55,813 nucleotides of DNA. Origin: a virus. Under the pieces are notes generated by a model. It had not been told where the DNA came from and searched no databases. It saw only the letters and a list, made by a program, of their open reading frames with translations. The stretch spans positions 1-55,813 of the IMG/VR virus record IMGVR_UViG_3300002460_000038; one strand, given 5' to 3'. Every line of letters begins with the position of its first letter. The first letter of the stretch is position 1. The position numbers and the translations under genes are program-made. Shown here piece by piece: positions 986-27,577 of this stretch.

Positions 986-1585
986 CTACGCCCTGGCTAG
1001 AGCAGCACTTGGGATACCTGCCGTCCTACACCGAGCACGCCATCGTTCGAGCCGTTCTTCGTCCAACCATAGGCACGCGACAGGATTCAGCCCGTCCTGC
1101 AGCCGACCAATGAACAGTGCCAGTTCGTCGGTGAGTTCAAACCACTCCTGATTGATGCGGAGATGCGCAAACCGTTCGTGAACGGCAGCCTCAAGCGCGG
1201 CATGGCACGGTGTGGCGACGAGCAGTTCGAGGGGTTCCGAAGATGACGTCTGGAGCTTTGACCGTCGTTCCTCCGGGTCGACTGAACGGCCAATCTTCAC
1301 CTTCGTTCCAGCCCTCAAGGCGTACAGGTAGCACCATCCGTCGGGGCTGCGTGGCAAGAGCGGTTCGCGCTCCGGAAGTCTCGACAAAAAATCCCAATGT
1401 CCCCGCGCCCGCTCGTCAGTGCGCCAGCGGTCGATGACTTCCAGTGGCGTGGTCAACGGAAATCGCTTGTACGTCTCACGGCCACCGGCATGCTTAACCC
1501 GTGCCTCATATCCGTTCTTCTTGATGCGAATGCCTCTTGAAATACGAGTCGTCGTCGGCATGGCTGGCCGCTTTAGCGACGGCAT
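986..1585 (-). CDS. GIY-YIG (T5orf172-type) nuclease
   Basis: 199 residues, minus strand, against the direction of all neighbours. Residues of about 85-160 show the T5orf172/MUG113 version of the GIY-YIG fold: WCYLYAL, VKIGRSVDPEERRSKLQT, a histidine-glutamate segment (AAVHERFAHLR) and EWFEL. The first 60 residues are basic and resemble the arm-type DNA-binding domain of tyrosine recombinases. The solitary reversed orientation fits a mobile homing-type gene. A second in-frame ATG eight codons in could be the true start. Specificity cannot be read from sequence. Confidence 0.7.
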   Translation of the reverse strand: MPSLKRPAMPTTTRISRGIRIKKNGYEARVKHAGGRETYKRFPLTTPLEVIDRWRTDERARGHWDFLSRLPEREPLLPRSPDGWCYLYALRAGTKVKIGRSVDPEERRSKLQTSSSEPLELLVATPCHAALEAAVHERFAHLRINQEWFELTDELALFIGRLQDGLNPVACLWLDEERLERWRARCRTAGIPSAALARA

Positions 1586-1707
1586 CTCTCTGCTTCCGTT
1601 TCATGCGCGTTCGCACCACTCGCCGGACACTATTTTCGATGCTGTCCATTTAGCTCGCCCAGAAGCATAGCCGGTAAACCATTTAGAATCAGCATCTTGT
1701 AGGACAT

Positions 1708-1730
1708 AAACTTTTTGTTGACAAAAGTTT
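1708..1730. promoter_or_regulatory. Candidate operator, 8-bp inverted repeat
   Basis: AAACTTTT at 1708-1715 and AAAAGTTT at 1723-1730 form a perfect inverted repeat with a 7-nt spacer. It covers the -35 box at 1718-1723, which is the right place for a repressor. It is AT-rich in otherwise GC-rich DNA. The adjacent HTH protein is the natural candidate ligand (inference). Confidence 0.5.
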
Positions 1731-1747
1731 AGAATCGACACGATACT
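1718..1747 (+). promoter_or_regulatory. Sigma70-type promoter for the HTH regulator
   Basis: TTGACA at 1718-1723, an 18-nt spacer, then GATACT at 1742-1747, followed at once by the ATG at 1754. The start codon lies only six bases past the -10 box, so a transcript from here would be leaderless or nearly so. Confidence 0.5.
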
Positions 1748-1753
1748 CTAGCC

Positions 1754-1993
1754 ATGAAGCTGGGGCGGCGAGAGACGATCAAGAGAACGCTGAAGGCGCT
1801 CAGGGCAACGGCCGACCTCTCACAGATGGCCGTCGCCGAGCGAATTGGCGTGACGGGAAGACGCTACTGGCTCATTGAGAACGGGTATGAGCAGCCCACC
1901 GCCACCGAGTGCAATCGGTTGGCGAAGGTGCTCAAGGTCAAGGTTGACGAACTCGGGTTTCCCTCCTGTCAGGTCGAGGCACGGGCGTCATGA
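1754..1993 (+). CDS. XRE-family HTH transcriptional regulator
   Basis: 79 residues forming a compact lambda-repressor-like helix-turn-helix. Its layout is LKALRATADLSQMAVAERIG, then the recognition helix region and IENGYEQPTATECNRLAKVL, typical of XRE/Cro proteins. It has no dimerisation or peptidase domain, so it is Cro-sized. It sits directly behind a promoter overlapped by an inverted repeat and overlaps the next gene by four bases, suggesting an autoregulated two-gene operon. The segment YWLIENGYEQPT is closely echoed in the next protein (YWRIENGYDEPT). Confidence 0.8.
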   Translation: MKLGRRETIKRTLKALRATADLSQMAVAERIGVTGRRYWLIENGYEQPTATECNRLAKVLKVKVDELGFPSCQVEARAS

Positions 1994-2503
1994 AGCCGGC
2001 GCCGAAGTACCTCACGGTTAAAGAAGCCGAGCAGCACCTGCGAGCCACCTACGGGCGCTCGTTCAAGCGGCATCTGCCTGCCGTGCGTCGGATGCCGGTG
2101 CGGGTGCAGTTGCGCACGTTGCGACTCGCCATCGGGAATCCCTCCCAGATCGAAGTCGAGCAGCTCGCACAGTTGCCGCGCGGTAAGTACTGGCGCATCG
2201 AGAACGGGTACGACGAACCCACACCAGAGGAACGCACGCGACTGGCCTTTGTGTTTCGCGTGAAACTTGCCGGCTTTGACAGTGACAAGGAACTCGGTGT
2301 GGCGATTGGCGACGAGGGACGGCCGATCAGCGCGTCGCAGCTCTCCGCGTGGTTCAGCCGCCAACCGAGGCACCGAGAACCCGCAGACCTGGCGCTTCGA
2401 ACAGCATCCCCGTTTAGGGCCAGCGCTCTTGCTCGCGCGGGCGGAAGTCACCGACGGAGCCGTCGTCAGGGTCTCGATCGAGTTGAACAGGAGGGTCGGA
2501 TGA
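1990..2503 (+). CDS. XRE-like DNA-binding protein, apparent frameshift near 2353-2366
   Basis: The frame from ATG 1990 has an N-terminal half related to the preceding regulator (KYWRIENGYDEPTPEERTRL). It loses protein-like character after about residue 122 (SAWFSRQ). From there another frame carries a natural-looking tail (ANRGTENPQTWRFEQHP onward) and stops at TGA 2501-2503, overlapping the ATG of the next gene as ATGA. The two halves join cleanly with one indel in the segment at 2353-2366. Without the shift the first frame stays open to 2721 and fuses to the KTSC gene. Sequencing error, decay or programmed shifting are all possible. Confidence 0.5.
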
Positions 2504-2721
2504 ATCGCATGGCCGTGGATTCGTCTCTGATCGCGAGCGCCGGACACGACGGGGACGCGATGGAAGTGGAACTCGCGAGCGGGCAGGTCTATCGGTACGA
2601 GGGGATCTCGCGCGAGCAGTACGACGCCTTTATGGCCTCGGACTCGAAGGGGAAGTACTTCAACGGCGTCATCAAGGGCGCGTGCGCGTCGTGCACGCGC
2701 GTGGATCGGCACGAGCACTAA
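2500..2721 (+). CDS. KTSC domain protein
   Basis: 73 residues from ATG 2500, preceded by GGAGGG-like bases. The core VDSSLIASAGHDGDAMEVEL, then SGQVYRYEGI and SKGKYFNGVIKG matches the small KTSC domain found in many phage and bacterial proteins. The function of the family is not established. The same frame extends upstream into the XRE-like gene, so a fusion of the two is the alternative reading. Confidence 0.7.
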   Translation: MNRMAVDSSLIASAGHDGDAMEVELASGQVYRYEGISREQYDAFMASDSKGKYFNGVIKGACASCTRVDRHEH

Positions 2722-2728
2722 CAACGAA

Positions 2729-2769
2729 ACGCCCGTAACGGCTGCCTGGAAGCTCCCCGTCACGGGCGT
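2729..2769. promoter_or_regulatory. Stem-loop before the 2783 gene
   Basis: ACGCCCGT at 2729-2736 pairs perfectly with ACGGGCGT at 2762-2769. There is no T-run after it, so it is more likely an RNA-stability or translation element than a terminator. It lies just upstream of the ribosome binding site of the 2783 gene. Confidence 0.4.
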
Positions 2770-2782
2770 CATGGAGAAAACG

Positions 2783-4054
2783 ATGAGCAGTGTAGCACCC
2801 AATCTCATGAACGACAACGACGACCTGACCGACGTCATCGTCGACCCGAACCAACTGACGGCGAAGATTGCCGCCTGGAAAGCCGCGGGCTTCCACGTGC
2901 TCTCTCCGGCCATCAAGTTCACCAGCTTCGCCGTCAACTTCGGCGCGAACGTGGGCGCCCTGGTCATCAGCACCGACCCGGCGATGGGCGAGTGCTACTA
3001 CGACAAGGCGGCCATGAAGGAGGACGAGCGGGCGATTGCGCGCGTCGGCCTCGACAAATTCACGCAGCTCGCCGGCATCTCGTGGTTGCCGTCCAGCCGG
3101 CGCACCGACCCGCGCACGGTAATGAACCTGTGGGAATACCACGTCGATGGCGCCTTCGTCAGCTACGACGGCACGCCGCAAATCATCACCGGGACGTCGG
3201 AAGTCGACCTCCGTGACGGCGGCGCGCAGATTGGCGGTTGGACGCCGCAAGGCTGGAAGGACCTCCTGGCGGCGAACGTGGGGAAGCCCAAGGACCAATG
3301 CACCTGGAATATCGGCGGCTGGAGTGAGCAGCGCGTGATGAATGCGCGCCGGTTCGGGCTGCGGCTGGCGGAAACGAAGGCGAAGAACGCCGCCATTCGC
3401 ACGCTCGGCCTGAAGGGCAAGTACACGCTCGACGAGCTGGCGCGGCCGTTCATCATCCTGCGCTTCCAGTACATCCCGGACATGACCGACGCGAGCGTGC
3501 GGCACATGGTCGCCGCCGCGCACATGCGCGGTATCTCGGCGCTCTACGCCGGCACGGCACACCGGGAGCTGCCGGAACACACAGGCGGGGCCGACATCAT
3601 CGACATTTCGTCGGTGCGCCGGCCAGATCCGGTGCCGGTGTCCGTGGCGCCGCCGCCGGTGGCCGAGACACCACGGGCTGATAGTGCAGCGGCCAGCATC
3701 CAGGTCTCCAAAACCGAAGACGCCGGTTCGAGTCCGGCTCAGCCCGCCACGCCACCCGCCGCGCCCGACGTCTCCCCAGCGAACGTCATCAAGGAAGTGT
3801 CGCGGGAGACGAAGGCGTACGGGGCGAAGCACGCGAAGGCGGGCCAGACGTTTGTCAAGTTCCACATCATCGACGGGAACGGCGTCGACCACGTGACCAT
3901 CCGGGAGAACGTCGGTACGAAGGCGGAGAAGTACTGGCGCGAGCGCATTCCGGTGCGTATTAAGTCCGCGCTGAACGACTTCCGCGAGCAGGAGTTGTCG
4001 GCGATTGACCCGTTGCAGACGGCGCCCGTGGCGGCGGCGGAGATCCGGCTGTGA
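2783..4054 (+). CDS. Unidentified conserved-looking phage protein of the recombination cluster
   Basis: 423 residues from ATG 2783, chosen over ATG 2771 because GGAG at 2773-2776 sits six bases upstream. The first 270 residues look folded, with a segment (AETKAKNAAIRTLGLKGKYT) like those of ssDNA-binding or annealing proteins. Residues of about 285-340 are proline/alanine-rich, and a short C-terminal domain follows. It overlaps the SbcD gene by four bases. Its position before SbcD/SbcC is where phages often encode a single-strand annealing protein. That role is inference from context; no catalytic motif is visible. Confidence 0.5.
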   Translation: MSSVAPNLMNDNDDLTDVIVDPNQLTAKIAAWKAAGFHVLSPAIKFTSFAVNFGANVGALVISTDPAMGECYYDKAAMKEDERAIARVGLDKFTQLAGISWLPSSRRTDPRTVMNLWEYHVDGAFVSYDGTPQIITGTSEVDLRDGGAQIGGWTPQGWKDLLAANVGKPKDQCTWNIGGWSEQRVMNARRFGLRLAETKAKNAAIRTLGLKGKYTLDELARPFIILRFQYIPDMTDASVRHMVAAAHMRGISALYAGTAHRELPEHTGGADIIDISSVRRPDPVPVSVAPPPVAETPRADSAAASIQVSKTEDAGSSPAQPATPPAAPDVSPANVIKEVSRETKAYGAKHAKAGQTFVKFHIIDGNGVDHVTIRENVGTKAEKYWRERIPVRIKSALNDFREQELSAIDPLQTAPVAAAEIRL

Positions 4055-5570: not shown

Positions 5571-8020
5571 AGCTCGAACGCCTCGAGATCAAGGGTTTCA
5601 TGAACTTCCGCGAGCCGGCGACGCTGGACCTGCGGGACATCCCGTCCGGGCTCGTCTCCATCACCGGCGTCAACGGCCACGGCAAGACGCGGTTGCTCGA
5701 CGCCGGCCCTGGCGCGCTCTACGGGGAGTTCTTCTCCCGCGACGGCAACATGGCCGAGTACGCCACGGAGCCGGACGCCTACATCGACGCGCTGTACCAC
5801 GTCGAAGGCCGCGGGTCCTACCGGGCCCGCATGAACGTGGATGGCGTGAAGGGCAACCGGGACGCCGTCCTCGAGCTGGTGCAGCCGGACGGCTCGAAGG
5901 TGCCCTTGAACGACGGCAAGGTCAGCACGTTCAAGGAGTCGGTCGGCCAGATCTTCCCGCCCAAGGAATTGCTGTTGGCGTCGGCGTTCGCCGCGCAGAA
6001 CCGGGCGGGCTCGTTCGTGTCCCTCGACCGCAGCAAGCGGAAGGACCTGTTCGGGAAGCTGCTCGGGCTGGAGCACTACGCTCGGATGGCGGCCACCGCC
6101 AAGGCGTGCGCCGACATCGTCGAGAGCACCCGGGCCCGGCTCCAGGAGCGTCGTGATTTCCTCCTGCGGGAAACGTCGCCAGCCATCTTCGACGAGCAGC
6201 AGGCTCGGGCGAACGTGCTGCAGGCGGAGCTCGGTAACGCGGGACTGGCGCGCGCCGACCTCCAGACGCAGATTGAAGGGCTGACCGCGGAACGCGCCGA
6301 CCTCACCGAGCAGGCGATGGCGCACCTGAAGTCGCTGGAGCGCATCGAGACCCTGAAGGCGACGATCGCCACGCGTACCGCCGAGCGGGAGCAGGTCGAC
6401 GTCGACCGGCGCGCCGCGCAGGACGGCGCCGTGGTGGAACGGACGCGCGCGGACATTCAGCGCACGACCACGCTGGGCAGCCTGGACGAGCGGGAGCAGG
6501 CCGAGCGTGACCGGCACGCGGCCACGGTGGCAGACCTCCGCGAGCGGATTGCCGGGAATCAGACCCTCAACAGCAAGGCGGACGAGATTCGGGCAGCGTG
6601 CATCGCGAAGGCGGACGCCACGGCGCAGCGCGAGGGGTTGCAGGAGAAAGAGCGGCGTCTCCGCGAGGACCTCGACCAGTTCCGGGACCAGGTCCGCGGC
6701 CGGGAAGGGAAGCTGCGCGAGCTGGCCACCGTCGAGCGGGACCTGACGGCCGCGCGTGAGAGCGCCCGGACGCTGACCGTTGTGAAGTTCGGCGAGCAGT
6801 GCGGCGGTGAGAATCCGTGCCAGTTCGTCGCCAAGGCGGCGGCCGACAAGGGCTCGATTCCTGACCTCGAAGTGCAGGTGCAGCACGTCGCCACGTTGCG
6901 CGAAGGCGTGGCGCTCTGGACCGACAAGGTCACCGCGGCGCAGACCGACATCAAAGCCGTCCTCATCGCCATCGCGCAGGTCGACGCCAGGCTGAAGGGG
7001 CTCGAACCGCTGGCGAAATACGAGCCGGAGCTGGCCGCCACGGAAGCGCGCATCACCGAATACCAGCGCGTGCTCGACAACGAGGATGCGGCGCTCGTCG
7101 GTCGCCTCGCGGACATCGAGGCGCAGCGGAAGGCCGTCGACCTCCAGCACGGTGAGACCTTTGCCGACATCGAACGCCGCTTCGAGGCCCGGTGTGCGGA
7201 GCTGGCGGTCCGGCGCGAGACGCTGCTGGAGGCGTCGTCGCAGGCGCACCAGGCGCTCACCCTGGCCGAGCAGGAGGCCGACACCCTGGCGCCGGCAGCG
7301 CTCCGGCTGAAGGTGCTCGACGAGGAACTGGGGTCCGCGCGTGTCGCCTGGACCACGAATGAAGCCACGCTGGCCGGGCTCGCGGTCCGCAAGGACCAGT
7401 TGACCCGTGAACGGACCGCGCTGGCGGCGAAGCGAGCGGAACTGCAGTCGGTCCTGGACCGGCTGCGCCAGGTCGAGGACCGGTTGCTCTGCTGGAACGT
7501 GTTCGTCAAAGCGTTCGGCCGGGACGGGCTGCCGACGCTGGAGATCGCGGCGGCCGGGCCGACCGTCTCGAACCTGACCAACGACCTGCTCACGGCGTGC
7601 TTCGGCCCGCGGTTCTCCGTGGAGCTCGTCACCCAGGAAGAGCGCGCGGACAAGAAGGGGCTCAAGGAGTGCTTCGAGCTTCGCATTTTTGACAATGAGC
7701 ACGGCGGCGACAGCCGCGATCTGGCGGACCTCTCCGGCGGCGAGAGAGTAATTGTCGACGAGGCGCTACGGGCCGCGCTGGCCTTGTATGTGAACAGCCG
7801 CAACGTCGCCCCAATCCGCACGTGTTGGAGAGACGAAACCTTGGGGGCGCTCGATCCTGACAACGCGACGCGTTATGTCGCGATGCTCCGGCGTCTCCTC
7901 GACCTCGGCGGCTTTCACCACATTCTTTACGTTTCCCACAACCTCGACGCAGCGGCGCTGGCCGACACGCAAATCGTCGTGCGCGACGGCCAGCCCGAAG
8001 TCCTTCGGAGGGTCGCGTGA
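5567..8020 (+). CDS. sbcC: SbcC/Rad50-like SMC-family ATPase
   Basis: 817 residues from ATG 5567. Walker A is GVNGHGKT (34-41). A long heptad-rich coiled coil runs from about 200 to 650. Near its middle (about 411-418) the sequence CGGENPC may be a variant zinc hook in place of CxxC. The C-terminal lobe has the ABC signature LSGGER (about 722), a Walker B ending in RDETLGALD, and the H-loop VSHN. It is the ATPase partner of the upstream SbcD. Stop and next start overlap (GTGA). Confidence 0.85.
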   Translation: MKLERLEIKGFMNFREPATLDLRDIPSGLVSITGVNGHGKTRLLDAGPGALYGEFFSRDGNMAEYATEPDAYIDALYHVEGRGSYRARMNVDGVKGNRDAVLELVQPDGSKVPLNDGKVSTFKESVGQIFPPKELLLASAFAAQNRAGSFVSLDRSKRKDLFGKLLGLEHYARMAATAKACADIVESTRARLQERRDFLLRETSPAIFDEQQARANVLQAELGNAGLARADLQTQIEGLTAERADLTEQAMAHLKSLERIETLKATIATRTAEREQVDVDRRAAQDGAVVERTRADIQRTTTLGSLDEREQAERDRHAATVADLRERIAGNQTLNSKADEIRAACIAKADATAQREGLQEKERRLREDLDQFRDQVRGREGKLRELATVERDLTAARESARTLTVVKFGEQCGGENPCQFVAKAAADKGSIPDLEVQVQHVATLREGVALWTDKVTAAQTDIKAVLIAIAQVDARLKGLEPLAKYEPELAATEARITEYQRVLDNEDAALVGRLADIEAQRKAVDLQHGETFADIERRFEARCAELAVRRETLLEASSQAHQALTLAEQEADTLAPAALRLKVLDEELGSARVAWTTNEATLAGLAVRKDQLTRERTALAAKRAELQSVLDRLRQVEDRLLCWNVFVKAFGRDGLPTLEIAAAGPTVSNLTNDLLTACFGPRFSVELVTQEERADKKGLKECFELRIFDNEHGGDSRDLADLSGGERVIVDEALRAALALYVNSRNVAPIRTCWRDETLGALDPDNATRYVAMLRRLLDLGGFHHILYVSHNLDAAALADTQIVVRDGQPEVLRRVA

Positions 8021-8553
8021 TCAGCCCGACAGGCTTGTGCTGCTGCGGCTGTGGTCAGTCGACGAGGATTGCCGAGTGCGCGAATTCTCGCACTGGTGAT
8101 GTCAAGGGAGAGCCGCGACGTTTCCTGAAGGGGCATCAGACGCGCCGCCCGAGTCCACCTGGAAGGCGGTTGTCCACTGGCGGGTACGTGTTGCTCTTCG
8201 CGCCTGAGCATCCACGCGCTACGACCAACGGTTCTGTCTTTGAGCACATCGTCGTCGCTGAAAAGGCGCTCGGGCGTCTGTTACCACTTGGCGCTGTCGT
8301 GCATCACGTGAACGACGAGAAGGCGGAGAACCGCAACGACAACCTTGTGATTTTGGAAAACAACTCGGAGCACAAGTCCCTCCACCGGCGAAGGCGCGTG
8401 CTGCGTGCCGGCGGGAACCCCTGGACGCAGTGGCTGTGCTCAACGTGCAAGCTCCCGAAGGATTTGACCGAGTTTTATCGCCGGAAGAACGGCTGGGTGA
8501 ACTCGGAGTGCAAGACCTGCGAGCGAAAGCGACGCGGGACGGCGGCGGCGTGA
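8017..8553 (+). CDS. HNH endonuclease (free-standing, homing type)
   Basis: 178 residues. The HNH core is EHIVVAEKALGRLLP, then VVHHVNDEKAENRNDNLVIL and NNSEHKSLHRR, with the HH pair, the central asparagine and the last histidine in place. CCCGCGQ at the N-terminus and CSTCK with CKTC at the C-terminus form two cysteine clusters, probably zinc fingers. It is clearly related to the HNH gene at 27170, including the shared tail segment AGGNPWTQ. It overlaps sbcC by four bases and lies just before the tRNA-like gene. Confidence 0.8.
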   Translation: MISPTGLCCCGCGQSTRIAECANSRTGDVKGEPRRFLKGHQTRRPSPPGRRLSTGGYVLLFAPEHPRATTNGSVFEHIVVAEKALGRLLPLGAVVHHVNDEKAENRNDNLVILENNSEHKSLHRRRRVLRAGGNPWTQWLCSTCKLPKDLTEFYRRKNGWVNSECKTCERKRRGTAAA

Positions 8554-20492: not shown

Positions 20493-20611
20493 ACGAGGAC
20501 GACATGAAGCGCGCGGACCGGGCGGTGATGTTCGCGGCCGCGGGGATTCTGGTGCTTGGGCTGGTGCTCTGGTCTGGCCTGGCGCTGCTCGTCGCGGCGG
20601 TGCTCCAGTGA
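20489..20611 (+). CDS. 40-residue single-span membrane protein
   Basis: From GTG 20489 (GTGA overlap) a short charged N-terminus (NEDDMKRADR) precedes one long hydrophobic helix rich in Ala, Gly, Leu and Val. It overlaps the following gene in the same way. Too small to classify; a minor membrane-active peptide is possible. Confidence 0.5.
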   Translation: MNEDDMKRADRAVMFAAAGILVLGLVLWSGLALLVAAVLQ

Positions 20612-20976
20612 TCGACGCTCGCGCGGCGTCGACCGCCCCTGATCGACCGCAGGCCCCAGATGCTGGCTTCCGGTCGGTCGGGGCGCTCATTCAGGACATC
20701 ACCGCTGCCCACGGGCGGATGTCTGCGAACAATCCCCATCGCGCCATCCTCGAGCAGTGCGGCATCGCGCTCGGCGAACTCGCCGTGCAGCTCCACAACG
20801 AGCGGTCGAAGCACCGCGCTGCGGTCAAGGCGGTCCTGGACGCGGTCGTCGACATGCGGAATGTCGTTGCAGAACATCGGAAGTGGGCAGACGGTCTGAA
20901 CTTGCCGCAAGAGTCGTTGCTGTCGGCGATTGACGGGTGGGAAGAGGCGCTGTCCGGCATCGAGGGAGTCGTGTGA
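20608..20976 (+). CDS. Hypothetical helical protein
   Basis: 122 residues from GTG 20608. Mostly helical with segments such as AVKAVLDAVVDMRNVVAEHR and SLLSAIDGWEEAL. No motif recognised. Coupled to both neighbours by overlapping stop and start codons. Confidence 0.6.
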   Translation: MIDARAASTAPDRPQAPDAGFRSVGALIQDITAAHGRMSANNPHRAILEQCGIALGELAVQLHNERSKHRAAVKAVLDAVVDMRNVVAEHRKWADGLNLPQESLLSAIDGWEEALSGIEGVV

Positions 20977-21194
20977 TGCCGAAGGTGCTCTGTCAGGCGG
21001 AGACGGTCAACGGCTGCTTCCGTGTCGTCACCGGGAGCCCGAAGGCGGGCAGCGCGCCCGTCGTCGAGCGGCGCTCGACACCGGACGCGATGGGGATCGA
21101 CGTCTGGCAGCCGGTGACGGCCGACTGTGCGCTGCACGCGCTCGAGGCCGTGGTCGGGTATTTCGCCGCGGCCGACGCGGGAGGCGACGCGTGA
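20976..21194 (+). CDS. Small hypothetical protein
   Basis: 72 residues from ATG 20976 (TGATG coupling). Segments CFRVVTGSPKAGS and DCALHALEAVVGYFAA are seen. No family recognised. It ends in the GTGA that starts the terminase large subunit gene. Confidence 0.5.
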   Translation: MPKVLCQAETVNGCFRVVTGSPKAGSAPVVERRSTPDAMGIDVWQPVTADCALHALEAVVGYFAAADAGGDA

Positions 21195-24100
21195 ATGTTG
21201 TCCTCCTGGTCCTGCTGATGGCGACCACCGCAGTCCCTTCGCAGCGACGGTTGGGCGCGGCCGGCGTCGTCGAGACCCAGACGATTGATTGGGCCTCGCC
21301 CGTTCAGCACGCCGCGTTCAAGTACGGCCCGTTCCCGCAGCTCGCGTCCGGGGGCTTCGGCTGCGTGGCCGGTGATACGCGGATCTTCGATGCGGAGACG
21401 GCACGGGAGTGGACGTTTGCGCAACTCGCCGCCACTGGTCGTCAGCCGATCGTGTTGGCGTGGACGGGCGACGGGTTCGCGTGGGTGCGCGCGAGTGCAC
21501 CTGTTCGGAAGGGCGTGGCGCGGCTCTATCGGATTCGAACGCGGTCTGGGAAGTCCATCGTGGTTACTTCCGCCCACCGGTTTTTGACCGACTCAGGTTG
21601 GTCAAGTGCTGGCGATATGACCCGTTCCGATGCCCGCGCCGGACGCCTTCGAGTGTCCGACGTCGACCCTCTGGCGTCCACTCTGGGCATTTCCCTTTCA
21701 GTGTCTCAGCGAGATGTTGACTGTTTCCTGAATACAGGCGCAGGTTCTCAATCGCGTTGTGCTGGTGATCGTCGTCAACGTGATGGACGACCTCGGTCGG
21801 CTCGAGAAATCGTCCGATGGCCGCTTCCATCACCAGTCGGTGCTCGCGCACATAGCCTGCGGCGTTTGCGTGCGGATGTTGCGGACATTGCACCAGCACG
21901 TAGCCGTCCTTATCGATTGTCCGGCCGCCCTTCCAGTCTCGATGCTTCGCTCCAGGCTGCGCGCCTCGGTTCTGCACCGGGAAGCCATGACGATGACAGA
22001 AGCGGCGCACTTGCTCAGGCTCGACTGGGAGCCGGAGGCGCTCCTGAATCTCTGGACACGTCAAGCCTTGTTCTGCGAGATGGCGGATTTGGACAAGGAA
22101 CGGCACTAGCTGGCCACGCTCTTTCATGCCTTGATTATATCGTGGAAGTGGTGGATTTGGGTGAGGGTGAATTCTATGACGTGCACGTGCCCGTCTGGAA
22201 TAACTACCTCGCGCACGGCTTCATCAATCACAACTCCGGCAAGACCTACGAAGGCTGCCTGAAGGGCCTCTGGCTCTCGGATGTGTTCCCGCGTAACCGC
22301 GGGCTCATCTTCCGGTCCGTCGCCAAGGACCTCCGCGCGACGACGATGGCCACGTTCAAGAAAATCTGCCCGCCGTCGGCGTACAGCGCGCCGGATGCCG
22401 GATGGAACCGCATGGAGGGCCTGACCCGGTTGAACAACGGATCAGAGATTCTCTGGCTCGGGCTCGACAATCCGGAGCTCGAAGACATCCTGAAGGGGCT
22501 CGAAATCAACTGGTTCCTCGGCGACCAGGCGGAAGACACTGCCGAGGAAATCTTCGACACGCTCATGGGGCGCCTTGGCCGGTGGGACCAGGCGGAGGTG
22601 CCGCAATGGCTGCTCGATGAGGAAGATGCCGCCGGTCGCCCGTGGCGCTGGCGGCATCCTGTCTCCGGCAAGCCGACGCCGCCGACCTACCCGATGCTGA
22701 CGTGCAACCCGGACACCGAGCTGCACTGGCTGTATCGGCGCTTCCATCCCGAAAGCCCTGAGCATTACGACCGCCGCCTGCCGGACCTTGACCTGACGAC
22801 GGGCCAACCGACCGGCAAGCTCGTGAGCTATCACGACCTCGGGTACCGGCTGTTTCACATGCCGTCGCTCGAGAACAAGTTCCTGCCGGCGCAGAACCGC
22901 GCGCATCTGCTTGCGCAGGATGATGCGTTCCGCCGACGGTACGTCGAGGGCATCTGGGGCCTCCCGGAAGGCGCTATCCACGTCGTCGACAAGCGGTCGC
23001 TCATCACCTTGGAGGACCAGGCGCAGGCCGACGCGTTTCTCACGTTGCTGCGGGAGACGTGCACGCTGCACCGGTTCCTTGACCACGGCGACTCCGCGCC
23101 GACCTGCTGCCTGTGGCTGGCGATCGACCGCCAGGGCAACATGTTCTGGTTCCGCGAGTACTACGTTCCGAATCAGCTCATCTCGTATCACCGCCGCGAG
23201 ATCACGACCTTGTCGCAGGGTGAGCGGTACACCTTCAATCAGGCCGACCCGAGCATCTTCAACAAGACGATGCAGAAGCACGGCGGTCGCTGGTCGGTGG
23301 CCGACGAGTACGAGGACAAGCGCGAGAGCCCGGCTGAGACCGCCATCTTCTGGGAGCCAGCCGACAACAACGAGCTCGGCACCCGCAACCGCATCAACGA
23401 ATACCTCCGCATCGATCCGGAGCGCATCCACCCCTACACGAAGGAGCGCGGCGCGCCGCGGATGTTCTTCATCGTGCGGACGGACGCGTACCCGCAGGGC
23501 GTCATGCACGCGCTTCGTGAGACCAGGGCGCAGCGGCGCCAGAAGCTCGGGACCGAGATGGGGCGCCCGGTGTTCAGCGACGAGCGCGACGAGAACATTG
23601 CCGACCACGGGTATGACTGCCTCGCTGGCGACACGACTGTGCTCACGCGCGACGGGTGGCAGCCGATTGCGTCGCTGGTTGGAACCGAGAGCGACATCTG
23701 GACGCTGGCAGGGTGGCAGCCGTATACGGACTGCCGCCGTTACCGGAGTGGGAGCGCAATGGTTCGCGTTGAGACGCGCGAAGGCGCGTTCCGCTGCACG
23801 CCGGATCATTTGATTCTGACAAGCGATGGCTGGAAACGTGCCGACGCGCTCACGAGTCGTGATACCATAGCGCAATGCAACCAGTGGTCATATCTCGGAC
23901 CATTCAATCCTTCAAGGGACTCAGGTACTACCTCTGCGGCTTCTATTTTCAGCGCGATGGGAAGCGGCTTCATCGCGCAGTGTGGGAGCATCATCACGGC
24001 CCTGTGCCAGTTGGCCACCATGTCCATCACGTCGATGGCGACAGGGCCAATAATGGGGATGGCAACCTCGTGCTTCTCGCCGAATTCACGCACCTCAGCG

Positions 24101-24589
24101 GACACTCGAAACGATCAAAGCATGAGCGCGCCGTTGCCGCAATGCAGGCCGCTGCTAAGCGATGGCACGGCAGCGACGCCGGGAAGCAGTGGCACCGCGA
24201 ACACGTTGCCGACTCCCTCGGTGCGACGTGGATCCGCGACGTGGAGCGGGAATGCAGCGAGTGCGGCCGAACATATATGGCGGCTCGTGGCGCCGCGTCT
24301 CGAAGTTACGTCTGCAGCAACGCTTGCAAGAGCGTTCGGTTTCGGCGGCTCAACCCAGGTTACGACCGTCGTTTTAAGCGAACCCGCCGATAGCTACTGC
24401 CTGAGTGTTCCAGCCCCGCACGCGTTCGCGATTGCGGGTGGCTTCCTTGTCCATAACTGCCTCCGCTACGGCACGGCCAGCCGGGCGCCAGTTGCGCGGC
24501 AGCCACCGCCGAATGCCGACCCGCGGACGTTTGCCGGCCAGTCGCGGCTGTTGAAGCAGGCGTCGCGCCAAGTGCGGGGGGCGCGATGA
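21191..24589 (+). CDS. terL: Terminase large subunit with two inteins
   Basis: 1132-residue precursor from GTG 21191 (ATG 21218 is an alternative). Removing the inteins at 21362-22234 and 23618-24457 gives a 561-residue protein of normal TerL size. The spliced P-loop would read GGFG-SGKT, followed by a Walker B-like INWFLGDQAED. The nuclease half has FLDHGDSAP and the last acidic motif DHGYD-CLRYG, split by intein 2. It is the ATP-driven packaging motor and genome nuclease. Both inteins sit at essential sites, so the enzyme cannot work until they are spliced out. Confidence 0.9.
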   Translation: MNVVLLVLLMATTAVPSQRRLGAAGVVETQTIDWASPVQHAAFKYGPFPQLASGGFGCVAGDTRIFDAETAREWTFAQLAATGRQPIVLAWTGDGFAWVRASAPVRKGVARLYRIRTRSGKSIVVTSAHRFLTDSGWSSAGDMTRSDARAGRLRVSDVDPLASTLGISLSVSQRDVDCFLNTGAGSQSRCAGDRRQRDGRPRSAREIVRWPLPSPVGARAHSLRRLRADVADIAPARSRPYRLSGRPSSLDASLQAARLGSAPGSHDDDRSGALAQARLGAGGAPESLDTSSLVLRDGGFGQGTALAGHALSCLDYIVEVVDLGEGEFYDVHVPVWNNYLAHGFINHNSGKTYEGCLKGLWLSDVFPRNRGLIFRSVAKDLRATTMATFKKICPPSAYSAPDAGWNRMEGLTRLNNGSEILWLGLDNPELEDILKGLEINWFLGDQAEDTAEEIFDTLMGRLGRWDQAEVPQWLLDEEDAAGRPWRWRHPVSGKPTPPTYPMLTCNPDTELHWLYRRFHPESPEHYDRRLPDLDLTTGQPTGKLVSYHDLGYRLFHMPSLENKFLPAQNRAHLLAQDDAFRRRYVEGIWGLPEGAIHVVDKRSLITLEDQAQADAFLTLLRETCTLHRFLDHGDSAPTCCLWLAIDRQGNMFWFREYYVPNQLISYHRREITTLSQGERYTFNQADPSIFNKTMQKHGGRWSVADEYEDKRESPAETAIFWEPADNNELGTRNRINEYLRIDPERIHPYTKERGAPRMFFIVRTDAYPQGVMHALRETRAQRRQKLGTEMGRPVFSDERDENIADHGYDCLAGDTTVLTRDGWQPIASLVGTESDIWTLAGWQPYTDCRRYRSGSAMVRVETREGAFRCTPDHLILTSDGWKRADALTSRDTIAQCNQWSYLGPFNPSRDSGTTSAASIFSAMGSGFIAQCGSIITALCQLATMSITSMATGPIMGMATSCFSPNSRTSADTRNDQSMSAPLPQCRPLLSDGTAATPGSSGTANTLPTPSVRRGSATWSGNAASAAEHIWRLVAPRLEVTSAATLARAFGFGGSTQVTTVVLSEPADSYCLSVPAPHAFAIAGGFLVHNCLRYGTASRAPVARQPPPNADPRTFAGQSRLLKQASRQVRGAR
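21362..22234 (+). other. Intein 1, in the TerL Walker A loop
   Basis: 291 codons. Block A is CVAGDTRIFD with Cys1; block B is VVTSAHRFLTDSG with the usual T-x-x-H; block F is YIVEVVDLGEGEFYDVHVP; block G is NYLAHGFINHN followed by Ser+1. It lies between GGFG and SGKT of the P-loop. About 170 residues between B and F have no intein-like or LAGLIDADG sequence. That stretch is instead the complement of an HNH gene (21564-22127). The splicing residues look intact. Confidence 0.85.
21564..22127 (-). CDS. HNH endonuclease encoded antisense within intein 1
   Basis: 187 residues, minus strand, wholly inside intein 1. A helical N-terminus (LAEQGLTCPEIQERLRL, HTH-like) precedes the HNH core: REHRLVMEAAIGRF, EVVHHVDDDHQHNAIENLRL and NSQHL, with HH, N and H in place. 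On the minus strand TATAAT (22139 down to 22134) lies six bases before its ATG, so a nearly leaderless transcript is possible. Its frame looks far more protein-like than the sense frame across the same DNA. It is probably the homing nuclease of intein 1. Confidence 0.8.
   Translation of the reverse strand: MKERGQLVPFLVQIRHLAEQGLTCPEIQERLRLPVEPEQVRRFCHRHGFPVQNRGAQPGAKHRDWKGGRTIDKDGYVLVQCPQHPHANAAGYVREHRLVMEAAIGRFLEPTEVVHHVDDDHQHNAIENLRLYSGNSQHLAETLKGKCPEWTPEGRRRTLEGVRRGHRNGSYRQHLTNLSRSKTGGRK
23618..24457 (+). other. Intein 2, in the TerL nuclease motif
   Basis: 280 codons. Block A is CLAGDTTVLTRDGWQPIASL, block B is RCTPDHLILTSDGW, the C-terminal block is DSYCLSVPAPHAFAIAGGF and the end is LVHN followed by Cys+1. 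It splits DHGYD from CLRYG. Cys1, His-Asn at the end and Cys+1 are the canonical splicing residues. The stretch between B and F translates to a Ser/Ala/Thr/Met-rich string without known motifs, because the DNA there encodes an HNH protein in another frame. Confidence 0.85.
23875..24393 (+). CDS. HNH endonuclease encoded out of frame within intein 2
   Basis: 172 residues from ATG 23875, on the terminase strand but shifted by two bases. It has an HNH core: RLHRAVWEHHHGPVPVGHHV, then HHVDGDRANNGDGNLVLL and EFTHLSGHS. After a helical stretch comes a zinc-finger pair, CSECGRTYMAARG and CSNACKSVRFR. It ends inside the intein C-terminal block. I see no good ribosome binding site or promoter, so how it is expressed is unclear. 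It is probably the homing nuclease of intein 2. Confidence 0.8.
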   Translation: MQPVVISRTIQSFKGLRYYLCGFYFQRDGKRLHRAVWEHHHGPVPVGHHVHHVDGDRANNGDGNLVLLAEFTHLSGHSKRSKHERAVAAMQAAAKRWHGSDAGKQWHREHVADSLGATWIRDVERECSECGRTYMAARGAASRSYVCSNACKSVRFRRLNPGYDRRFKRTRR

Positions 24590-24765
24590 AGACATGGACT
24601 GTCCTCGTCGGTCCCGCAGCGATTCGCATCGGGAAGTATTGGCGTCCTGTGCTGTCAGGAGACGTGTGGCTTCCGCGGCGGTTCATGACACCAGAAGCGG
24701 CCCTGCGTTATGCGGCGCAGCAGGAAGCAAAACTCGCGCGGCCGGAGACGACGACACATGGCTAA
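24586..24765 (+). CDS. Small hypothetical protein between terL and portal
   Basis: 59 residues from ATG 24586 (ATGA overlap with terL). Segments WTVLVGPAAIRIGKYWRPVL and FMTPEAALRYAAQQE look folded. The end overlaps the portal gene start by eight bases. No family recognised. Confidence 0.55.
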   Translation: MKTWTVLVGPAAIRIGKYWRPVLSGDVWLPRRFMTPEAALRYAAQQEAKLARPETTTHG

Positions 24766-26737
24766 GAAGCCCGCGCCGAAGAAGGCCGCCTCGAAGGGCT
24801 CGGCCGTGCGCCGTGCCACTGCGCCACCGAAGGACGAGCGCGAAGAGGACCGCGTTAAGGATTGGTTCGGCAAGATCCGCGGCGCCGACAAGGCGTACGA
24901 GGAATGGGAGAAGCGCTTTTCCGTCAAACGCGGCGAGGACTATTACGAGGGGCGCCAGTGGTACGGGCTGCCCGAGGCCGACGCCGACAAGCGGTATGTC
25001 ATCAACATCACCGCCGCGGCCGTCGAGACGCAGAAGCCGTCCCTGCTCTTCGACAATCCACAAATCCGGATCGAGCCGCGTCCGTCGCGCAAGGACGAAC
25101 TGAGCCGCCAGACGCTCGACGATGAAGCCAAGCTGGCCACGCAGGCCGTGCAGACGTTCATCGACGACCCGGACGTCAAGTTCATACTCGAAACAGGGCT
25201 GGGCGTGCACGAGGCGCACTTCCGGTTCGGGCTCGTCGAGGTCGGCTACACCGCCGACTTCCTCGACAACCCGCACGCGGGCAAGCCGCTGATTCCGTCG
25301 GACCCGACCAAGGCGGGCGAGCTGCCGGAAGGCGCGGGCGAGAACACCGTCGACACGGAGGCAGAGGACGCGGCCACCGAGGCCGGCGCCGACGGCGAGG
25401 CGGAGGCTGGCCCGCTGCAGCCTGACAAGGTCGTCCAGCCTGGCACCGAGCGCATCTACGTGAAGCGCGTGCCCGCCGAGTCGTTCCGGGTGTCGCTGTC
25501 AGGCAAGAACGACCTCAGCGCCAACGATTGGGTCGGCTACTTCGAATGGGTGTACGTCAGCGACCTGAAGGCCAACGCCAAGTACAAGAACACCGATGAT
25601 CTGAAATCCACCGGCACCATTGACCAGAAATACCGCCCGAGTGCCAACAGTCAGGACCTCGAAGCGAAGCACGGCATGGTCAAGGTCTGGAAGCTCTGGG
25701 ACCTCCGTGGGAAGGTCAAGCACGTGCTGGCCGATGGGCATCAGAAGTTCCTGCTCGAAGGCGAGCCGTGGAAGATTGTCCCGTTCGCCGACCTGAAGTT
25801 CCTCGAGCGCCCGAACCACTACTACCCGAAGCCGGTGGTGTTCGACTGGCTCAGCCCGCAGGACGAGCTGAACGAGCAGCGCGAGCAGGCGCGGAACCAC
25901 CGCCGCCGGTTCGAGCGCAAGTACACGTACCGCGACGGGTCGATCGAGGACACCGAACTGCAGAAGCTTCAGGACGGCGGCGACGGCACCTTTGCGAAGT
26001 CGCTGAAGGAGCACCCCATCGAGCCGGTGCCGGACGCGCCGCTCGGCGCGCAGAACCTGCAGTCTGGCGCGATGGCCGAGCAGGACTTCACGATGGTCTC
26101 CGGGGTCAGCGGGGAGCAGCGCCAGGTGGCCACCGCCGACACCGCGACCCAAGCCAGCATCATGGACTCGCGGGCTAGGCTGCGCGAATCGGCTGCCCGC
26201 ATAAAGGTGCGGAATTGGCTCGGGCAGATCGGGCGCCTGATGCTCCTGCACATGCGCGAGCACATGACGCTGCCGTTCATCATCAAGCAGCAACTCGACC
26301 TCCAGACCGCCACGCCCGAGGAAGTCCTCATGACCGCGCTGCGGTGGCAGGCCATCACGGCGAAGGACCTCGGCGAAGTCGACATGGAAGTGTCGGTGTC
26401 CCTTGACTCGCTGTCGCCCATTGTCCAGGAGACGGAGCGCGCCTCGTGGAACCAGGTGCTGGCGCTCATCGCGAATCCCGGCATCCGCCTGATGCTCTCG
26501 TTCAGTGATGCGCTGCTCCGGAAGACGCTGGACCTCTACGGCGTCACCAGCGAGCGCGACATCGTCGAGCTGAAAGGCGTCATGCAGAAGATGACGGAGT
26601 TGGAGCAGCTTGCGGCTGGCGCAGCGATGGAGGGTGGCAGTGCTGGCGTGACGGCTACGGCCGGGCCGCAGAAGCAGCCGCCAATGCTGCCTGGTCACGC
26701 TGGCGCGTTGCCTCCGCCAGCAACGGTGGTGCAGTGA
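24758..26737 (+). CDS. Portal protein
   Basis: 659 residues from ATG 24758. A lysine/alanine-rich start is followed by features of podovirus-type portals: EDYYEGRQWYGLP, INITAAAVETQKPSLLFDNP early, then FDWLSPQDELNEQREQARNH in the middle and a long helical crown region. A Glu/Ala-rich insertion lies near 185-225. It follows terL, the usual place, and would form the 12-fold ring through which DNA is packaged and ejected. Confidence 0.8.
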   Translation: MAKKPAPKKAASKGSAVRRATAPPKDEREEDRVKDWFGKIRGADKAYEEWEKRFSVKRGEDYYEGRQWYGLPEADADKRYVINITAAAVETQKPSLLFDNPQIRIEPRPSRKDELSRQTLDDEAKLATQAVQTFIDDPDVKFILETGLGVHEAHFRFGLVEVGYTADFLDNPHAGKPLIPSDPTKAGELPEGAGENTVDTEAEDAATEAGADGEAEAGPLQPDKVVQPGTERIYVKRVPAESFRVSLSGKNDLSANDWVGYFEWVYVSDLKANAKYKNTDDLKSTGTIDQKYRPSANSQDLEAKHGMVKVWKLWDLRGKVKHVLADGHQKFLLEGEPWKIVPFADLKFLERPNHYYPKPVVFDWLSPQDELNEQREQARNHRRRFERKYTYRDGSIEDTELQKLQDGGDGTFAKSLKEHPIEPVPDAPLGAQNLQSGAMAEQDFTMVSGVSGEQRQVATADTATQASIMDSRARLRESAARIKVRNWLGQIGRLMLLHMREHMTLPFIIKQQLDLQTATPEEVLMTALRWQAITAKDLGEVDMEVSVSLDSLSPIVQETERASWNQVLALIANPGIRLMLSFSDALLRKTLDLYGVTSERDIVELKGVMQKMTELEQLAAGAAMEGGSAGVTATAGPQKQPPMLPGHAGALPPPATVVQ

Positions 26738-26952
26738 TGGCTGCGCTGGTGAGTCCGGCGCCCGGAGACGAGACCGTGTTCAAGGGCGGCGCGCTGTCGT
26801 CGGCGTTCTTCACCGGTCAGATTCAGGCGTGGCGCCGCGAGCCGGCGACGACGGCCGGCTTTGAGTGGGTGTGTTTGGAATTCGAGGGGGGCGGCTCCGT
26901 GCAGATTCTCACGGGCAATCCGCTGGTGTGGATCGAGCCCGAACGGCACTGA
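26737..26952 (+). CDS. Small hypothetical protein
   Basis: 71 residues from ATG 26737 (TGATG with the portal stop). Beta-rich with segments FFTGQIQAWRREP and WVCLEFEGGGSVQI. No family recognised; it belongs to the head operon by position. Confidence 0.55.
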   Translation: MAALVSPAPGDETVFKGGALSSAFFTGQIQAWRREPATTAGFEWVCLEFEGGGSVQILTGNPLVWIEPERH

Positions 26953-26954
26953 CG

Positions 26955-27167
26955 ATGGCCTACCACAAGATTTCGCACCCGACGCGCGAAATGGCAGACG
27001 CCCACCGACGAGGCATGTTGGCAATCACGACGGAGCATCCGAAACGTCAGGCGGCCCTCGAAACGTACTGGTGCACGGTCTGCGACGCGTTTCATGTCGG
27101 CCACCGACGGTCACCGATCGCGCTGGCGCGCGTCCGGGCGCGCGGCGCACGGCTGAAGAGGCACTGA
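26955..27167 (+). CDS. Small zinc-ribbon-like hypothetical protein
   Basis: 70 residues from ATG 26955. Residues MAYHKISHPTREMADAHRRG lead into YWCTVCDAFHVGHRR, a CxxC-x-FHVGH signature common in small phage proteins that probably bind zinc. Followed directly by the HNH gene. Confidence 0.55.
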   Translation: MAYHKISHPTREMADAHRRGMLAITTEHPKRQAALETYWCTVCDAFHVGHRRSPIALARVRARGARLKRH

Positions 27168-27169
27168 AT

Positions 27170-27577
27170 ATGGGAGCAAAACGCCAATACGTGCAGATTG
27201 TCGAGCGCGTACTCGGGCGCCCTTTACCACCTGGCGCCATCGTCCATCACGTGGACCAGGACCGAGAGAACGAGCGGAACGACAACTTGTGCGTCCTTCA
27301 AGATTCAGCCGAACACGTCAGGCTGCATCGCAGGCTCAGAATTCTGCAGGCCGGTGGGAATCCTTGGACGCAGCAGATTTGCTGCACGTGCCAGCAGGTG
27401 AAAGACATCGACCAGTTCCCGCCATCCCGCCGAACGAGTAGCGGCGAATGTCATCCGTGCCTTGCTCGTCGAAGAACGCCTTCACCCGAAACGTACGACC
27501 AACGCCGAGAGCGGAATCGCCGCGCTGCCCAATCGCGCTGGCGAAAAGAACGGGAGGTGTGCCACGCCTCTTTATGA
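27170..27577 (+). CDS. HNH endonuclease (free-standing, homing type)
   Basis: 135 residues from ATG 27170. The core VQIVERVLGRPLPPGA, IVHHVDQDRENERNDNL and SAEHVRLHRR is a close relative of the HNH protein at 8017, including AGGNPWTQ and a CCTCQ/CHPC zinc pair. The end overlaps the start region of a FmdB-type gene, which has apparently lost its ATG. This fits insertion at that gene's 5' end. Confidence 0.75.
   Translation: MGAKRQYVQIVERVLGRPLPPGAIVHHVDQDRENERNDNLCVLQDSAEHVRLHRRLRILQAGGNPWTQQICCTCQQVKDIDQFPPSRRTSSGECHPCLARRRTPSPETYDQRRERNRRAAQSRWRKEREVCHASL

Follow-up and report, generated by a model that had tools for sequence, protein, structure and literature searches.

The large terminase subunit gene (terL) of the IMG/VR virus record IMGVR_UViG_3300002460_000038 raises the question of where an intein can keep its homing nuclease. 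We analysed the whole 55,813-nucleotide stretch of this record, hereafter the window. The initial annotation had described a first intein in TerL with splicing blocks at both ends, a sense frame open for 291 codons and, instead of an in-frame endonuclease, a complete HNH protein encoded on the complementary strand. Its coordinates for the intein and the antisense gene proved exact (Table 1), and the sense frame is free of stops from C1 to HN/S.

Intein 1 lies within the Walker A motif of TerL, GGFG|SGKT, with Ser as the +1 residue. The splicing blocks are borne out by matches to Pfam Intein_splicing (E = 1.9e-9) and NCBIfam intein_Nterm (E = 6e-6) and by a full catalytic set, comprising C1, T69..H72 of block B, D273 of block F and H290-N291. 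Among 43–45 relative inteins, C1, H72, D273, Y282, H290 and N291 are invariant or almost invariant. The start codon of terL is uncertain, GTG at 21191 being one candidate within an open reading frame at 20930-24589. The extein is 54–57% identical to four TerLs (L167, L168, L170 and L173), all of which are without both inteins. By its catalytic residues, its Hint fold and its in-frame position at a conserved motif that also has intein-less alleles, the element is an intein; it is not a canonical full-length one, as it has no in-frame endonuclease domain.

Table 1. Positions of terL, its two inteins and the genes hidden within them, numbered along the window.
Feature	Position	Strand	Basis
terL, large terminase subunit, with two inteins inside	21191..24589	+	open frame; extein homologous to intein-less TerLs
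Intein 1, 291 codons, C1 to HN/S	21362..22234	+	Pfam and NCBIfam matches, splicing residues
N-terminal part of Hint splicing domain, intein residues 1-105	21362..21676	+	pLDDT 94-98 to about residue 80; PDB matches
Sense filler, intein residues 106-254	21677..22123	+	mostly pLDDT <57; low identity in relatives
C-terminal part of splicing domain, intein residues 255-291	22124..22234	+	pLDDT 92-98; Y282, N291, D273/H290
HTH + HNH_3 homing-type endonuclease gene, 187 aa	21564..22127	-	Pfam HNH_3 E 4e-8; pLDDT 91.5
HNH core, residues 95-139 (EHR...GRxL..EVVHHVD...NxxxN..H)	21711..21845	-	residue conservation
TATAAT box, 6 nt before HNH ATG	22134..22139	-	sequence; -10-like boxes over-represented at equivalent positions in relatives
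Intein 2, 280 codons, C1 to HN/C, in TerL nuclease motif DHGYD/C	23618..24457	+	intein_Nterm 2.6e-5
Second hidden HNH_3 gene, inside intein 2, shifted frame	23875..24393	+	HNH_3 E 5.5e-12

Predicted structures agree with this division. AlphaFold modelled the Hint domain of intein 1 confidently at both ends, with pLDDT values of 92–98 for most of residues 1–80 and 261–291. Confidence drops from about residue 80 onward, reaching 71–83 by residue 100, and residues ~106–250 form no fold in the model, with blocks mostly below 57. Rows from the phage collection were left out of the alignments behind these predictions. The best solved matches to the splicing domain are mini-inteins, the Mtu RecA intein giving a TM-score of 0.90 by target. 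The sense middle also returned no domain match; it is not a conserved domain, in keeping with the claim that it is not an endonuclease. The antisense open reading frame does encode a complete HNH protein, modelled confidently throughout, whose core carries the catalytic residues of an HNH_3 homing endonuclease. R106, E112, V113, V114, H116, D118, N124, N128, N135 and H138 are invariant among 49–51 relatives, and all 51 antisense HNH proteins scanned match the HNH_3 family. The nearest solved fold is the homing enzyme I-HmuI, with a probability of 0.97 but an E-value of 0.075; searching PDB sequences with the HNH protein gave chance matches only.

The arrangement recurs far beyond this virus. 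In the first IMG/VR relative (L004), an intein occupies the same P-loop and the antisense HNH protein is 42% identical to that of the window. We scanned for viral relatives using four aligned HNH proteins as query and analysed the best 80 of at least 438. In 79 of these 80, all collected by similarity to the antisense HNH so that the share applies to such loci and not to HNH genes overall, the HNH gene lies antisense to a long open reading frame and is nested in an intein. Antisense nesting, which had been called rare, is therefore the rule in this HNH clade. The remaining locus (L088) keeps the antisense element but has one sense stop within the overlap, attributable to decay, recoding or sequencing error and suggestive of occasional decay or sequencing error. 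Nine isolated phages carry the intein with its antisense HNH gene: eight Pectobacterium/Dickeya phages and Pseudoalteromonas phage PHS3. Five loci in bacterial genomes, including Acinetobacter and Enterobacter cloacae, are also nested antisense, and prophages of Enterobacter, Acinetobacter and E. coli carry the arrangement. Of the weaker HNH relatives from bacterial genomes (L101 on), most are non-nested, indicating that antisense nesting is specific to this HNH clade. Dozens of unrelated phages with the same two-way design point to a genuine, widespread type of mobile element, not an oddity of one genome.

The geometry of the overlap is constant. In all 88 antisense cases, window included, HNH codon position 1 lies opposite sense codon position 1; one locus with another register and no intein (L121) was left out of the set. 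Both intein junctions could be resolved in 58 of the 64 non-redundant loci, and the insertion sites resemble G|[ST]GK[ST] in 53, fall after GK in 8, and are D|[CT]G[LM]GK of SNF2/DEAD-type helicases in 3. The intein is always at a P-loop, either at one of two TerL positions or in an SNF2-like helicase (L055, L071 and L079). A tree of HNH proteins groups the helicase copies in a single clade and shows at least three switches between the two TerL positions; non-nested relatives are placed weakly, at three points. Searches of viral contigs that used the sense intein protein or an intein alignment as query gave nothing usable because the sense middle is unconserved. One HNH subclade (L005, L006, L082, L095 and L100) has a C-terminal HNH extension, SPYLLGT.HHLEKA..., that is antisense to the N-terminal splicing block, so that two conserved stretches lie on the same DNA.

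Which of the two frames is under selection can be read from their stops and codon positions. As a null model, we shuffled synonymous codons within each HNH gene, holding its protein and codon usage fixed. Across the 64 non-redundant loci there were no sense stops, compared with 442 expected, whereas the other two antisense registers contained 474 and 740 stops, compared with 474 and 637 expected. For the window locus alone 2.4 sense stops are expected, and their absence is only mildly unlikely (P(0) = 0.047). Comparing sense and antisense codon sites across relatives, as the initial annotation had proposed, we found that the HNH third position varies most, the mean differences at HNH positions 1, 2 and 3 being 0.22, 0.17 and 0.45 in 22 independent pairs. 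The opposite pattern, a conserved sense domain over an antisense frame broken in relatives, had been raised as a counter-possibility; relatives show the reverse, with HNH amino-acid identity exceeding sense identity in 22 of 22 pairs.

The close pair L100/L175 illustrates this shift within a single intein. Over intein codons 111–290, there are 9, 39 and 4 changes at sense positions 1, 2 and 3, and 39 of the 52 changes in the overlap are at the HNH wobble position, whereas over codons 1–70 most variation is at sense position 3. In the overlap, 44 of 180 sense residues changed, compared with 14 of 179 HNH residues. From codon-position rates and paired identities we conclude that the HNH protein is under purifying selection and that the sense insert is kept free of stops but is otherwise nearly free to vary. 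It is a disordered filler of which only the open frame is preserved, within an intein whose splicing residues are invariant. The strong constraint on codon choice that had been proposed thus holds for stop avoidance but not for the sense amino acids.

Relatives also carry expression signals for the antisense gene. A Shine-Dalgarno 5-mer lies upstream of the antisense start in 45% of loci, compared with 3.4% of shuffled sequences; the mean of the best sigma-70-like scores is 8.69, compared with 7.70 ± 0.10 for shuffled sequences and 7.80 on the other strand; and an exact TATAAT occurs in 13 of the 64 loci, where 3.5 are expected. These promoter-like and ribosome-site signals fall within the code for the C-terminal splicing block. 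For the HNH gene of the window, a full sigma-70 promoter was not significant and no clear ribosome site was seen, leaving the TATAAT near the ATG, which, as a guess, would suit a leaderless HNH transcript.

The element has moved between genomes. Precise empty sites, GFG|SGKT, are present in Escherichia phage PHB10 and in a prophage of E. coli ET729. The copy in the Enterobacter cloacae prophage (L100) has TerL flanks that for the most part share 91–95% identity with those of intein-less PHB10. The L100 intein is itself 85–98% identical to that of E. coli MEI003, with TerL flanks mostly 61–75% identical, demonstrating movement between backgrounds. Mobility is thus observed for relatives, through diverged terL backgrounds and site changes on the tree, rather than for the window copy.

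Such loci are poorly served by current gene calls. In the RefSeq record of MEI003 (L175, NZ_CP071263.1), the antisense HNH gene was annotated instead of terL, which is consequently listed as a pseudogene 'missing N-terminus'. In PHS3 (L006), the annotated TerL begins inside the intein and the antisense HNH is a separate gene, the true open frame being 708 codons long. The Pectobacterium/Dickeya phages have a 754-codon open reading frame labelled 'hypothetical protein' in annotated records. RefSeq mis-annotation of this sort is likely systematic for this element, which explains terL genes annotated as truncated, pseudo or hypothetical in E. coli MEI003, PHS3 and Ymer-group phages.

Intein 2 of the same terL is non-canonical too, and belongs to a recurrent family. 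Its match to Pfam Intein_splicing (2e-6) is below the curated cut-off. Among 19 viral relatives of its HNH protein, 15 are nested in the same frame, mostly visibly inside an intein at the same type of site, and 12 of these, the window among them, have no sense stop, compared with ~30 expected. An uncultured huge phage (L014, LR756508.1) has a methylase intein (1561-3912) that likewise hides a 294-aa HNH gene (1934-2818), which uses the other same-strand frame, with 0 sense stops compared with 17 expected. The window contains two more HNH_3-like genes, at 8017-8553 (+) and 26861-27577 (+), whose products share 42% and 32% identity with the antisense HNH in the core region; the open reading frame lists for the window show no long frame across either.

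Taken together, these data indicate that intein 1 is very probably a working intein whose homing function has its own gene on the opposite strand. Translation of the sense frame would yield TerL with a Hint splicing domain in which the former place of the endonuclease is taken by ~150 unstructured residues, and we propose that these residues are there solely because the underlying DNA is required by the antisense HNH gene. By homology, intein 1 should excise itself after translation and restore the Walker A motif. Expression of the antisense strand would be separate, relying in many relatives on a promoter-like sequence and a ribosome site of its own within the code for the C-terminal splicing block. 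The HTH-HNH nuclease would then cut or nick intein-less P-loop alleles of co-infecting phages or prophages, as its homology suggests, and repair of the cut allele would copy the whole intein. A possible advantage is early or steady expression of the nuclease, independent of the late terL transcript, a timing that again is suggested by homology.

We weighed this interpretation against other explanations of the locus. HNH proteins beside terminases can be packaging factors, and the element is found mostly in terL genes, so the HNH protein might be a domesticated factor that works with TerL (like HK97 gp74) and is kept near terL by nesting, with no role in homing. We consider this unlikely, given that the HNH-intein unit also occurs in the SNF2-like helicases, that relatives with the closely similar terL flanks described above are entirely without the element, and that intein and HNH travel together, the nearest fold of the latter being I-HmuI. 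It is about as improbable that the intein is dying, with HNH and splicing both defunct and the open frames recently inherited. The sense stop in L088 would fit such decay, but the catalytic residues of both proteins are invariant in very diverged copies, and there is the evidence of movement.

High GC lengthens chance open reading frames, and the mildly unlikely absence of sense stops in the window alone would allow the antisense frame to be a by-product of GC-rich sequence coding for a functional intein domain. This idea is already contradicted and we give it almost no weight: the arrangement is seen at GC contents of 0.38–0.71, every antisense protein scanned matches HNH_3, and it is the antisense frame that is conserved, opposite a sense insert without predicted fold. 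HNH_3 enzymes are also common in group I introns, so the gene could in principle be part of an RNA intron that is itself inserted in the intein. A group I intron at the locus was rejected on finding no Rfam intron match in 20500-25000, and the sense frame is stop-free throughout, with junctions at the protein level (C...HN/S), making this reading similarly negligible.

An intein with a separately encoded antisense nuclease changes the picture of how inteins can carry homing function. We lean, with some reserve, toward the broader view that these inteins of phage P-loop ATPases form a distinct and ancient class of mobile elements whose nuclease gene has been relocated onto the opposite strand, under a promoter of its own, uncoupling its expression and evolution from those of the spliced protein, and which jumps between P-loop proteins and positions; together with intein 2, they raise the possibility that out-of-frame nuclease genes are the usual architecture of terminase inteins. 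The loci also provide many natural examples of full-length antisense overlap: each product has a recognisable function, the register is constant across very diverged copies, and the codon-position signature reveals the selected frame. Because isolated phages of Pectobacterium and Pseudoalteromonas carry the element, the arrangement is directly testable.

A 2025 preprint by Gosselin et al. reportedly concerns actinobacteriophage inteins with 'non-canonical architecture'. Among the 5.39 million open papers searched, outside that preprint, we found no description of an intein with an antisense nuclease gene. To that extent the arrangement is undescribed, as had been suggested, but there is a precedent for an out-of-frame HNH gene on the same strand with no splicing domain. 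This is the ShiLan domain, or Pacc40 insertion, a hidden out-of-frame HNH gene in phage DNA methylases, which its authors read as actively homing but could not assign to an intein or intron (Arsenault, Gosselin and Gogarten 2025, PMC11855218); the word 'antisense' is absent from that paper. ShiLan and intein 1 both have an out-of-frame HNH gene in an insertion that leaves the host frame open. However, the ShiLan HNH gene is on the same strand and has no splicing domain around it, whereas intein 1 combines the opposite strand with a complete Hint domain. Intein 2, with a splicing domain and a same-strand HNH gene, is not of the ShiLan type either.

The other of the two closest precedents that we found is provided by group I introns whose endonuclease gene lies on the complementary strand, as in Porphyra rDNA (PMC2585584). 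There, too, a homing gene is antisense to a self-splicing host element, but the element is an RNA intron, the enzyme is of the His-Cys box type and no open sense frame is required. I-HmuI resembles the antisense HNH protein in its HNH core, its Pfam HNH_3 assignment and its fold, but is encoded on the sense strand of a group I intron. Finally, canonical inteins share with intein 1 a Hint domain, a conserved insertion motif, a homing nuclease and both empty and filled alleles; in them the nuclease is part of the intein polypeptide, whereas in intein 1 it is encoded separately, on the other strand.
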